From assembly GCF_003990445.1 (NCBI RefSeq), contig NZ_REEZ01000002.1:499121-563120 (forward strand): a DNA stretch of 64,000 bases, written 5' to 3'. The notes under the pieces were generated by a model. That model worked only from the letters and a program-made list of their open reading frames with translations. It was not told the origin of the DNA and did not search any database. This document shows, in pieces, positions 6,464 through 63,575 of the stretch (positions are counted from its first letter, which is position 1; each line of letters begins with the position of its first letter). A program made the position numbers and the translations under genes. The stretch comes from Pararhodobacter zhoushanensis (GTDB lineage: Bacteria; Pseudomonadota; Alphaproteobacteria; Rhodobacterales; Rhodobacteraceae).

Positions 6464-7165
6464 TCAGGCCCTCCGCAGTTTTTTCAACACAACAGGCAGC
6501 AGAGACAGCGCCGCCAGCCCCAGAAGTGGCCCCAGGATATAAGGCTCGAAGATGACACCCAGATCAGGCGTCTCGCCCCGCGCGAAAACTTCGCCCAGCC
6601 CGGCACCGACCCATGTATAGACCAGCGCGCCCGGCAGAATGCCAAGCAGCGTGGTCCAGACAAACCGCCAGACCGCGACACCCAGAAAGGCCGGGATCAG
6701 GTTGGCGACGAAAAACGGCACCGCCGGGATCAGGCGCATCGACAACAGCACCGGCACCTCATTGGCACGGATGCCGTCGCTGAGCCGCCGCACCGCGCCA
6801 TCCGTCGCATCAATCCGCGCCCGCAGCCGCTCGCCAAACCCGGCGCGGACAGCGAGGAACAGAAGCAGCGCGCCCAGCGTCGCCCCGCTGACATTATAGA
6901 GCACGCCCGGAAACACCCCGAACAGGAACCCGCCGGTCAGCGTGACCCAGATCGCGCCGGGGATCGAGAAAGCCACAACCACCACATAGGCCGCGATGAA
7001 CAGCGCCGGGGTCAGCAGCGGATTCGCAGCGCGGTAGGCCAGCAGCGCGTCGTGGTTCGCGGCCAGCGACTCAAAACTCAGCCGGTCGCGCAACAGCACG
7101 AGTCCCAGCACCGCGCCGGTTGCGATGATGATCAGCGGGAGCCAGCGGCGCAGGGTCGGGGGCAT
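6464..7165 (-). CDS. TVP38/TMEM64 (DedA-like) family membrane protein
   Basis: 233 residues with an N-terminal helix, the SNARE-associated/VTT core (FSIPGAIWVTLTGGFLFG, then a Gly-rich helix) and a long amphipathic segment leading to PAVPFFVANLIPAFLGV, typical of the family. These proteins act in the inner membrane, possibly in lipid or ion movement. GGAG lies ten bases before the ATG. It is the first gene of an operon with the disulfide oxidoreductase and the histidine kinase. In other bacteria the first two are sometimes fused, supporting a joint role that is still undefined. Confidence 0.9.
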   Translation of the reverse strand: MPPTLRRWLPLIIIATGAVLGLVLLRDRLSFESLAANHDALLAYRAANPLLTPALFIAAYVVVVAFSIPGAIWVTLTGGFLFGVFPGVLYNVSGATLGALLLFLAVRAGFGERLRARIDATDGAVRRLSDGIRANEVPVLLSMRLIPAVPFFVANLIPAFLGVAVWRFVWTTLLGILPGALVYTWVGAGLGEVFARGETPDLGVIFEPYILGPLLGLAALSLLPVVLKKLRRA

Positions 7166-8110: not shown

Positions 8111-8180
8111 AGGGGGGCCTTCTGCCCCCCTCTGGCGCGTACCGCGCCATTCACCCCCCGAGGATATTTTCAGACAGAAA
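8111..8180 (+). repeat. Composite intergenic repeat, copy A, left arm
   Basis: Stem 1 GGGGGGC/GCCCCCC (8112-8130), TC, stem 2 TGGCGCG-TAC-CGCGCCA (8133-8149), then TTCACCCCCC and GGATATTT (8162-8169) followed by GACAGAAAAT. The same order is seen in copies B to E, with the second stem changed but still paired. Confidence 0.8.
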
Positions 8181-8188
8181 ATGCGGCG

Positions 8189-8205
8189 TTAACGCTTTGT
8201 TAACC
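8189..8205. promoter_or_regulatory. CtrA-box-like motif
   Basis: TTAA, seven bases, TTAACC matches the CtrA consensus TTAA-N7-TTAA(C) described in Caulobacter. It lies between the two arms of repeat copy A, 143 bases before the DUF523 gene. Function is inferred from the motif only. Confidence 0.35.
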
Positions 8206-8220
8206 TGCAACTTTATGCCC

Positions 8221-8306
8221 TAAATATCCCGGGGGCGGGCCGGAACGGCCCGGCGGGGGCAGCGCCCCCGAGCGGCGCGAGACCCCTCGATGGGGTCGAG
8301 CGCCGC
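8221..8306. repeat. Composite intergenic repeat, copy A, right arm with GA-loop hairpin
   Basis: Begins with inverted AAATATCC (8222-8229) and GGGGG, then hairpins GGGCCG-GAA-CGGCCC (8237-8251) and CGGGGGC-AGC-GCCCCCG (8254-8270), and ends with a 35-nt hairpin at 8272-8306: GCGGCGC, GA, GACCCC, loop TCGAT, GGGGTC, GA, GCGCCGC. The last hairpin recurs at 29378-29412 with a changed inner stem. Confidence 0.8.
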
Positions 8307-19860: not shown

Positions 19861-19928
19861 CATTTTCTGTCTTCAAATATCCTCGGGGGGTGAATTTGCG
19901 CAGCAAAGAGGGGGGCAGAAAGCCCCCC
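19861..19928 (-). repeat. Composite intergenic repeat, copy B
   Basis: Minus strand: GGGGGGC-TTTCT-GCCCCCC, TC, second stem TTTGC-TGC-GCAAA, then TTCACCCCCC and GGATATTT (complement of 19875-19882) and GACAGAAAAT. It lies downstream of soxG, in the direction of that operon, and may end its transcript. Only one arm is present here. Confidence 0.8.
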
Positions 19929-29148: not shown

Positions 29149-29275
29149 GGGTTTCGCCCTCGGCCCCTGTCGGCTGTCGCCGCCGCGCCCTCGGGCGACC
29201 GGGCAGGGGGGCCTTGCCCCCCTCTTGGCCTGACGGCCAATTCACCCCCCAGGATATTTAAGGACAGATGATAAG
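29149..29275 (+). repeat. Composite intergenic repeat, copy C, left arm
   Basis: GGGTTTCGCCCTCGGCCCC, a variable segment, TCGGGCGACCGGGCA, stem 1 GGGGGGC-CTT-GCCCCCC (29206-29222), stem 2 TTGGCC-TGAC-GGCCAA (29225-29240), TTCACCCCCC, GGATATTT (29252-29259) and GGACAGATGAT. It shares the leading blocks with copies D and E and faces an inverted right arm about 50 bases away. Confidence 0.85.
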
Positions 29276-29292
29276 GGTTCGTTAGCCCTGTT

Positions 29293-29412
29293 TCATTTTC
29301 TGTCTTCAAATATCCACGGGGGGATTTTCACGGGGGCGCGTGCGTCCCCCTTGAAGCGGGTGCGGGTGGCAACCCGCGCGGCGCGAGGGCCCTCGATGGG
29401 CCCGAGCGCCGC
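29293..29412. repeat. Composite intergenic repeat, copy C, right arm with GA-loop hairpin
   Basis: Inverted ATTTTCTGTC and AAATATCC (29308-29315) with GGGGGG, then GC-rich hairpins, ending in a 35-nt hairpin at 29378-29412: GCGGCGC, GA, GGGCCC, TCGAT, GGGCCC, GA, GCGCCGC. Compared with copy A (8272-8306), outer stem, GA/GA internal loop and terminal loop are identical while the inner stem is replaced by another perfect stem. Confidence 0.85.
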
Positions 29413-42632: not shown

Positions 42633-42757
42633 GGGTTTCGCCCTCGGCCCCTGACGCTTTCAGCGTCATGGCTTCGGGCGACCGGGCAAGGGGGGCGTCG
42701 CCCCCCTCTTTGGCTTCGCCAAATTCACCCCCCAGGATATTTAGGGACAGATGATAG
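42633..42757 (+). repeat. Composite intergenic repeat, copy D
   Basis: GGGTTTCGCCCTCGGCCCC, hairpin TGACGCT-TTC-AGCGTCA (42652-42668), TCGGGCGACCGGGCA, stem GGGGGGC/GCCCCCC (42690-42706), stem TTTGGC-TTC-GCCAAA (42709-42723), TTCACCCCCC, GGATATTT (42735-42742) and GGACAGATGAT. It is oriented against the flanking tsaB and rimI genes. Confidence 0.85.
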
Positions 42758-55649: not shown

Positions 55650-55726
55650 CCCCTTACCAAATCCTTAACCCCTCCCCCTAAGCCGCTGGAATCGCTTACC
55701 CCGGCCCTGTGTCCCATCAGGGGACA
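55650..55726 (+). repeat. 77-bp promoter-associated module, copy 1
   Basis: CCCCTTACCAAATCCTTAAC begins a C/T-rich tract; exactly 60 bases from its first base begins the palindrome TGTCCCATCAGGGGACA. It ends 93 bases before the ATG of the MetE-C-like gene. Copy 2 (58273-58349) has the same spacing and about 80% identity. Confidence 0.8.
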
Positions 55727-55818
55727 CGCCCCGCGCTGACCAATCCCCAGTTGTTTTTCCGCCCCCCCGGTGATCAAATGCGCCCAACGCATCCCCTTGA
55801 CCCAACCGGAACCCCCTC

Positions 55819-58272: not shown

Positions 58273-58349
58273 CCCCTTACCAAAACCCTAACCCCTCCCC
58301 CTAACCCCCTGTAATCCCTCACCCCACCCAAATGTCCCATCGTGGGACA
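58273..58349 (+). repeat. 77-bp promoter-associated module, copy 2
   Basis: CCCCTTACCAAAACCCTAAC and a C/T-rich tract, then TGTCCCATCGTGGGACA starting exactly 60 bases from the first base, as in copy 1. It ends 95 bases before the ATG of the dioxygenase gene. The two downstream regions show no further similarity. Confidence 0.8.
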
Positions 58350-58444
58350 GTCCCCAACCGCACACTCCCTGTGCGCCGATGTGGCTTCTCAGCGGGGCCC
58401 CGGTCCGCCATATCAAGGGTCAGTTCCCTCAAGGAGGCCCCGAC

Positions 58445-63307: not shown

Positions 63308-63475
63308 AGGGGTTTCGCCCTCGGCCGAAAGCCCTGCGGGCTTTAGCCCTCACGCGACCCACGGCGGCGCGCGGCCTTGCGGCCCCGCGCCGCCAGGCAG
63401 GGGGCTTCCTGCCCCCTCGCCGGCCCCTCCTGCGTCGGGGCCGTCTTCACCCCCGGGGATATTTTCAGAGCAAAG
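63308..63475 (+). repeat. Composite intergenic repeat, copy E
   Basis: GGGTTTCGCCCTCGGCC, hairpin AAAGCCC-TGC-GGGCTTT (63328-63344), a long GC-rich hairpin (63363-63394), stem AGGGGGC/GCCCCCT (63399-63417), a longer second stem with GGCCCC/GGGGCC, TTCACCCCC and GGATATTT (63457-63464). Downstream of the exporter gene. Confidence 0.8.
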
Positions 63476-63575
63476 AGGCGGGACGCGACGGCAGGGCTGC
63501 GTCGCGATTGCATCGGCGTGCAAAAATGCCCATCTTCTCAGGGAGTACCCAAGAACTCGCGCCAGGGAGGAAACC

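Follow-up and report, generated by a model that had tools for sequence, protein, structure and literature searches.

A dispersed gene-end hairpin repeat of Pararhodobacter zhoushanensis, whose genome-specific words agree with a structured, apparently non-coding locus

A composite repeated sequence, made of a hairpin arm, a conserved head and a short word which differs from genome to genome, was found dispersed in the intergenic regions of Pararhodobacter zhoushanensis and related bacteria. In each genome the word tends to agree with that carried by a structured, apparently non-coding locus, here called M. Judging from sequence comparison, the reading which we tentatively prefer, and to which we give slightly less than an even chance, is that the elements act as two-sided 3'-end hairpins and that a small RNA carries the same word, which would serve as an address.

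Five copies (A to E) had been proposed by an initial annotation of the window, i.e. of the whole 64,000-nucleotide stretch of DNA analysed, and all five were located where it placed them. The blocks GGGTTTCGCCCTCGG, assigned to copies C, D and E, and TCGGGCGACCGGGCA, assigned to C and D, were confirmed. The order stem 1-TC-stem 2-TTCACCCCCC-GGATATTT, described as shared by all copies, holds for A to D, with B on the minus strand; in E the arm is longer. E does not end with GACAGA, as had been stated, but with a different word, GAGCAAAGAGG. Copies A and C, described as single units, turned out to be tail-to-tail pairs, each core being provided with its own arm: the second core of C lies on the minus strand at 29299-29315, and its arm is unlike the left one. 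Copy D is a single half, with its tail near the stop of the convergent gene to the right. At the site corresponding to copy B, the relative G596 has a full pair, with the word GAGCAAAG. The features are the following, in window coordinates, with the arm types defined below.

8112-8183, plus strand: copy A, left half; alpha arm 8112-8161, head GGATATTT 8162-8169, triplet 8170-8172, word GACAGAAAATG 8173-8183
8189-8203, plus strand: copy A, dyad centre; TTAA-N7-TTAA, a CtrA-type box (C12:507309-507324, window 8189-8204)
8208-8303, minus strand: copy A, right half; word GCATAAAGTTG 8208-8218, triplet 8219-8221, head 8222-8229, gamma-type arm 8230-8303 (far end approximate)
19861-19928, minus strand: copy B; word GACAGAAAATG 19861-19871, triplet, head 19875-19882, alpha arm to 19928
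29149-29205, plus strand: copy C, upstream blocks GGGTTTCGCCCTCGG ... TCGGGCGACCGGGCA
29206-29251, plus strand: copy C, alpha arm; stem 1 29206-29222, TC, stem 2 29225-29240, TTCA, C run 29245-29250
29252-29272, plus strand: copy C, left head GGATATTT 29252-29259, triplet AAG, word GACAGATGAT 29263-29272
29294-29412, minus strand: copy C, right half; word GACAGAAAATG 29294-29304, triplet, head 29308-29315, beta-type arm 29316-29412 (far end approximate)
42633-42755, plus strand: copy D; upstream blocks, alpha arm 42690-42734, head 42735-42742, word GACAGATGAT 42746-42755
63308-63478, plus strand: copy E; GGGTTTCGCCCTCGG block, longer arm, head 63457-63464, word GAGCAAAGAGG 63468-63478

The string GGATATTTNNNGACAGA occurs at five exact places in the window; allowing up to three mismatches, seven matches are found against 1.26 expected, a count reached by none of 100 shuffles. 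The pairs, the other arm types, the lexicon of words, the spread through the bacterial family and the M locus were beyond the reach of the initial annotation. A genome-wide search was performed on the 4.83 Mb genome (G000) with the core CACCCCCNGGATATTTNNNGACAGA (C run, GGATATTT-NNN-GACAGA) and up to three mismatches: 83 + 74 = 157 places were detected, against none in the reversed control, and the description of a dispersed, composite intergenic repeat is thereby borne out.

The anatomy of the element was derived from 863 kb of this genome, window included, together with loci retrieved by the searches. A half-element consists, in order, of a hairpin arm, a run of 5-6 C, one to three bases, the head, three free bases and a word of 9-11 bases; the head is either GGATATTT or G[AC]GTATTT. 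According to simple patterns, the arms of 73 distinct halves fall into alpha (32, the type of the initial annotation), beta (24), gamma (9) and other (8) types. Among the 45 intergenic halves of this 863 kb, 31 carry the word GACAGATGAT or GACAGAAAAT, seven GAGCAAAGA, one of them with a four-base spacer, and seven GCATAAAGTTG. A second form, G[AC]GTATTT-NNN-[GA]CAAG[AG]TGA, is present at 54 places, with none in the control; it is often armless (8 of 13 in the 863 kb), and head and word are linked in 12 of 13, GCG going with GCAAG and GAG with ACAAG. The two core classes thus number 157 and 54, and the long words 120. Few words are decayed: a search of the window and of 400 kb with up to one mismatch detected 20 GACAGA cores, every one of them exact. 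Many elements are mirror pairs, joined tail to tail, and single halves are also common; words differ by genome, and several coexist within one genome. A target-site duplication as origin of the NNN triplet, and a quasi-palindrome correction as origin of the matching words, were both ruled out, as the two halves of a pair have unlike triplets.

Selection on structure had been proposed on the ground that the second stem changes in sequence and yet always pairs. It is supported by the analysis of 30 alpha arms, picked by a pattern which does not demand pairing of stem 2: 95.7% of the stem 2 cells are paired, versus 70.8% (sd 2.5) after shuffling, and the covariation score is 0.559, versus 0.131 for shuffled alignments and at most 0.089 for slid versions. 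A separate count gave 153 base pairs out of 155, against 107.6 in shuffles (maximum 126 in 2000), and RNAalifold returns the same stem 2. Covariation stands, but not the independence of the copies: the variants are partly discrete alleles (20 distinct in 31 arms), so that not all copies represent independent events. Folding of single sequences is only moderately better than for shuffles (z from -0.8 to -3.7 for six window stretches), and the argument therefore rests on covariation.

The same features were followed in relatives. G596 is about 94% identical to the window genome over 359 kb; 20 of 25 element groups could be mapped between the two, in alignments read by eye, and at all 20 the element is present in both. 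Stem 2 has changed on both sides at site 452697 (TTGGCC/GGCCAA to TTCGGC/GCCGAA, G000 versus G596) and at 412063 (TTCGGC/GCCGAA to TGGCGC/GCGCCA). A G6/C6 stem 1 has G5/C5 as its counterpart at six sites (361157, 398858, 589399, 394833, 672974 and 677093), and stem 1 is altered on a single side at five (357963, 404909, 417010, 452697 and 507282). The word is switched as a whole, in place, in 6 of 27 halves (357963 on both sides, 398858, 417010, 507342 and 518995), shows smaller changes in another six and is kept in 15; among these 15, the free triplet has changed in seven, at two or three letters in five. The head is not fully fixed, being GGATAGTT or GGATACTT in G596 at 394833, 404909 and 412007. 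Gene conversion among copies, combined with selection on word and pairing, would explain this pattern. In the comparison with G222, of the same genus, eight conserved gene pairs have a head-like string in at least one genome, three of them being uninformative. The core is kept, with a differing arm or word, at 138888, 162357 and 259032, the last with an imperfect head; at 251913 the element lies on the opposite strand; finally, the 104-nt core-plus-arm of G0C1:143898 is cleanly absent in G222, where the two convergent genes overlap.

The distribution among genomes was evaluated by pattern searches. Pattern CCCNNGGATATTTNNNG has 229 matches in the window genome and is matched in 113 of 198 genomes of the bacterial family; in 285 genomes of the class outside the family it is at background level, 0-3 per genome. 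The genome's own word, within one mismatch (CCCNNGGATATTTNNNGACAGA), was found in 81 of 295 family genomes, and GTATTTNNNNCAAGATGA, with up to one mismatch, in 75 of 100, in up to 103 copies, versus 0-2 per genome in the control. Many of the matching family genomes have one or two matches only, which corresponds to background. As far as sampled, the repeat appears confined to one bacterial family, the named matches being Roseobacteraceae. A blastn search of plasmids revealed 11 records with partial matches, covering 20-27% of the query, all from Leisingera, Tritonibacter or Ruegeria; the same search of phages with copy C gave no match. In Leisingera caerulea a copy lies directly 3' of a RidA-family gene, with word GCCAGATGAA and yet another paired stem 2, TTGAGCC/GGCTCAA. 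An IMG/VR contig of 10,452 bases contains two armed cores with different words (L280:1927-1943 and 6515-6540); it is filed as viral but is more likely host sequence. A complete alpha/beta pair is also found in contig_14 of Novosphingobium sp. MW5 (L273:2960-3190), the sole record in an exact-string contig scan; it is possibly a contamination, and misnaming and transfer are further candidate sources. The end of the ORF just before this pair resembles YchF.

The position relative to genes was evaluated on genes predicted by a purpose-made, simple codon-usage caller, counting spacers of 80-500 nt. In the window genome, convergent spacers hold the element in 19 cases out of 37, tandem spacers in 22 out of 161 and divergent spacers in 1 out of 101; the corresponding values are 10/26, 13/148 and 0/84 for G222, and 7/14, 10/94 and 1/44 for G596, whose tallies are not independent of those of G000, its close relative. 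Only 1 of 46 halves in G000 and 1 of 24 in G222 fall within predicted genes. Direction is not strict: towards the upstream gene end, cores in tandem spacers present the head in 31 cases and the tail in 25. A Ruegeria sp. TM1040 pair is an exception, being located in a divergent spacer according to public annotation.

Intrinsic terminators are GC-rich hairpins located directly after genes and followed by a T run. The element shares with them the GC-rich hairpin at gene 3' ends, but a C run and GGATATTT take the place of the T run straight after the arm, the hairpin of stem 2 stopping about 13 nt ahead of TATTT, unlike in a textbook terminator; its tail is made of head, triplet and word, it is used from both sides and its word is genome-specific. 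Hairpin-plus-T terminators, as scored by a detector which also counts some arms, are not scarcer at gene ends with an arm (38 of 78) than at those without element (214 of 578), and are fewer (9 of 42, again with some arms counted) at gene ends reached from the tail side only. At some half-elements no other terminator was seen (e.g. window copy C, right half G0C1:121873). The most economical role for the arms would be that of a two-sided terminator or 3' stabiliser, since they behave like RNA hairpins at gene ends in both directions.

The M locus takes its name from a second conserved motif, CGGTACAGGC-n6-GCCGATGACCG, which in several genomes lies in paired elements whose cores are about 150 nt apart. 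With up to two mismatches, the motif is present in 138 of 198 family genomes, in 1-5 copies each (five in the window genome), with none in the control; the window itself has no exact match. Among 40 matches read, 31 are flanked by cores on both sides, according to a simple pattern. In the 57 distinct M loci compared, a second copy of the left-core word, the echo, usually stands directly 3' of M and mostly carries G for A in its middle; a further copy, reversed, is found at the right core. The echo agrees with its own left word at 7.73 of 9 letters, versus 5.76 for words of other loci (at least 8 letters in 45 of 56), and with the right word at 7.76, versus 5.80 (37 of 46); in 34 of 46 loci the left and right words differ at no more than one of 11 letters.

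M is paired in 99.5% of cells, with a covariation of 0.263 versus 0.119 in shuffles, values to which, the search pattern having fixed most letters, mainly the free positions 3/31 and 14/19 contribute. The echo is in turn complementary to the 3' end: all nine positions can pair in 37 of 43 loci, and the mean is 8.81, against 7.43 after shuffling. This 3' end is rich in T (48% versus 17%). Six M loci fold as two adjacent hairpins (z from -4.4 to -11.0), with L363 preferring another second hairpin. From M to the end of the word, over 78-123 nt, the locus can be read as a hairpin, a candidate seed, a terminator-like hairpin and a U-rich end. The M locus at L014:1566-1661 of the window genome (C1, about 305.3 kb), like the other M loci, resembles a small RNA gene with a U-rich end. 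Coding of a small peptide was considered and dropped, by eye, in favour of stem covariation.

The words of dispersed cores were compared with those of the M loci of the same genome. Cores were collected with pattern CCCNNGGATATTTNNNG, in which the first letter of the word is fixed as G and which is otherwise blind to the word; genomes without a read M locus, duplicate cores, two cores which are M loci and, owing to a position filter, one G114 core were omitted, and the M words of G063 and G128, missed by the script, were added by eye. An M word of the genome to which the core belongs is matched at 8 or more of 9 letters by 24 of 31 distinct cores, from 17 genomes. The mean agreement is 7.71, versus 4.88 (sd 0.42, maximum 6.39) when genome labels are permuted, none of 2000 permutations being as good; taking one core per genome, 12 of 17 match, again with 0 of 2000 permutations as good. 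The misses in G093, G120 and G151 (2-3 of 9) are armless and look like chance matches; the others are an armed core of G086 (1 of 9) and, at 7 of 9, the G051 core, one from G193 and one from G073. The omitted G114 core does not match the one M word read there.

Within the genus of the window, the M words seen are GACAGATGAT (G000, where one of five M loci was read, and G593), GCATAAAGTGG (G593), GCACAAAGACG (G222), GACAGATGAAA (G591) and GACAGAAAATG (G581). In G000, G593 and G222 these words, or their first 6-8 letters, recur at many other places; G591 and G581 were checked by the first six letters. The common word of G010, GCAAGATGA, has no counterpart among the four M loci read in that genome.

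The reading of the word as an address rests on four features: it is near-exact within a genome, it is swapped as a unit, free bases set it off from the head, and a structured locus of the same genome agrees with it. In this two-sided 3'-end reading, the arms, as RNA, would end or protect transcripts arriving from either side. The M RNA would form two adjacent hairpins, the second by pairing of the G-bearing copy of the word with the complementary word, which would also provide the U-rich 3' end, and would find its targets by base pairing with the word, or with the complement of the word, close to mRNA 3' ends; a genome with several M loci would then have several word classes of genes. Extended to the whole bacterial family, the proposal becomes one of RNA addressing, in which a few M small RNAs per genome, each with its own word of 9-11 bases, would read by base pairing that word, or its complement, in the dedicated 3'-end hairpin elements of tens to hundreds of genes; in this general form we consider it doubtful, at about one chance in four. 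If it were true, swapping one short word would move a gene between RNA regulons, and the vocabulary would diverge from genus to genus.

M and its echo sit between two cores, and M is therefore equally possible as the inside of a mobile repeat. A REPIN- or MITE-like repeat without a protein of its own, of which the M locus would be the complete element and short pairs and halves the remains, is a less likely explanation. The word would be a terminal inverted repeat, M plus echo a recognition structure or guide, and copies would be moved by an enzyme of unspecified kind into gene ends, which tolerate insertion. Agreement of words is predicted by this explanation and by the address alike. The inverted word bounding the M loci, with its 10 or 11 identical letters, fits mobility, as do the clean absence of the G0C1:143898 element from G222, the variation of arms, words and pairing state between sister species, and the genome-wise word dialects, of the kind known for REP sequences and their transposases. 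Against it, all 20 mapped groups are shared by two genomes 94% identical, indicating little recent movement; few words are decayed (20 of 20 GACAGA cores exact), though the head variants GGATACTT and GGATAGTT exist; and stems are maintained by compensatory change. In addition, the RAYT/Y1 model PF01797 has no match in the window genome, G222 or G596, where a diverged relative may score below the model, and has matches in 2 of 18 other genomes of the genus.

REP, BIME and REPIN sequences come with RAYT transposases (PMC2817692). These sequences and the RIB/RIP elements resemble the element in being dispersed, extragenic and hairpin-forming, in inverted pairs at gene 3' ends and with genome-specific variants; high copy number (157 cores), extragenic location (one half of 46 in a gene) and tail-to-tail inverted pairs are all found here. 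RIB/RIP elements have a central IHF site, and many pairs of our element hold a central protein-type box, as in that class of repeats. The element differs from REP/BIME in several respects: no RAYT/Y1 gene was found in its genome, the word has no palindromic symmetry of its own, the core includes three free bases, several unrelated arms share one core and the partner which matches the dialect is a structured, apparently non-coding locus. REP/BIME sequences further have a GT(A/G)G head at the foot of an imperfect palindrome, and their RAYT gene is flanked by the repeats; inspection of the listed alpha arms showed no such head below stem 1.

The central box itself opens a further explanation, which we regard as improbable: a protein, CtrA or another binder of TTAA-N7-TTAA, would act at pair centres and, e.g., block polymerases which converge there. 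In Dinoroseobacter shibae, CtrA sites have been predicted with the consensus TTAA-N7-TTAAC (PMC4046655). In the 863 kb there are 13 TTAA-N7-TTAA sites, all between predicted genes and 10 of them near a core, i.e. within about 120 nt, in zones which make up about 1.5-2% of the sequence; other spacings between 2 and 15 give at most seven sites (spacing 2), otherwise 0-2. All six sites in 400 kb of G596 are near a core, and the whole-genome list comprises 107 strand-hits (10 in the control), with 16 of 19 distinct sampled sites, from overlapping samples, located in elements. Among 22 pair centres not fetched by the box, six have it exactly and 17 within one mismatch, against a mean of 0.44 and a maximum of 4 in shuffled centres; other spacings, also within one mismatch, give 8 at spacing 6 and 0-4 elsewhere. 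An earlier tally of 14 exact in 30 included eight pairs fetched by the TTAA pattern itself, omitted here. On the other hand, close copies cannot be counted as independent, many elements are single halves which have no centre, and the three TTAA-N7-TTAA sites read in G222 all lie away from elements. The sequences flanking the box are complementary too, so that a hairpin may account for part of the signal, and CtrA binding here is putative, being taken from other species. Half of the CtrA-type boxes at pair centres (e.g. window 8189-8203) lie between converging genes, where no promoter is expected. The G222 pairs L314, L315, L317, L318 and G2C1:63665 have centres without a CtrA box; several G222 centres are TTTGANTCAAA-like palindromes holding a GANTC site (L315 TTTGACTCAAA, G2C1:63665 TTTGATTCAAA). 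Should CtrA-type boxes indeed be concentrated in elements, the prediction of CtrA targets in this lineage would change.

Genome-specific exact words in inverted pairs near gene ends also recall DNA uptake sequences, and a word favoured by transformation, with dialects as in Neisseriaceae, would be an explanation of very low probability. The sequences of Neisseriaceae are exact words, with dialects by genus and inverted pairs associated with terminators (PMC3630211), all likenesses to the element. Uptake sequences, however, occur in thousands of copies, also within genes, whereas here there are tens to hundreds (157, 54 and 120 for the classes above, about 130-230 per genome), almost all intergenic (1 of 46 halves within genes in G000, 1 of 24 in G222), and both hairpin arms and M locus are foreign to that scheme. 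A chance likeness of GC-rich terminators, to which general GC-richness and the moderate folding scores of the window might point, can practically be dismissed, given 157 places against none in the reversed control, the window count reached by 0 of 100 shuffles, the stem statistics of the 30 alpha arms and the words of 24 of 31 cores.

Returning to the address reading, M compares with trans-acting bacterial small RNAs in its hairpin, candidate seed, terminator-like hairpin and U-rich end, the last a feature which it, by contrast with the arms, shares with intrinsic terminators; it differs from such small RNAs in a candidate seed complementary to its own 3' end and in candidate target words which lie at gene 3' ends and vary between genomes. 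A search of the window against Rfam 15 revealed only a tRNA at gathering score; copy C had matches below threshold only, the best being RsmV with 27.5 bits (E 3.8e-6, gathering 100), and 14 loci with M or pairs, searched with E up to 1, gave two weak matches, neither on M. We could not find a description of the element or of M in the open-access literature, nor a paper with two of the three core strings.

Dispersed gene-end repeats are usually explained by a transposase, as for REP and RAYT, or by terminator function. Here the word agrees with an RNA-like locus, which provides a concrete case for asking whether a non-coding RNA can fix the dialect of a repeat. If the word is an address, it would represent a novel kind of link between a single small RNA and the 3' ends of many genes.

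The window also contains an 83-nt direct repeat, unrelated to the element, at 55650-55732 and 58273-58355, whose two copies are 81% alike (CCCCTTACCAAA...TGTCCCATC.GGGGACA); a similar stretch is found in C12 of the same genome, near 583 kb.
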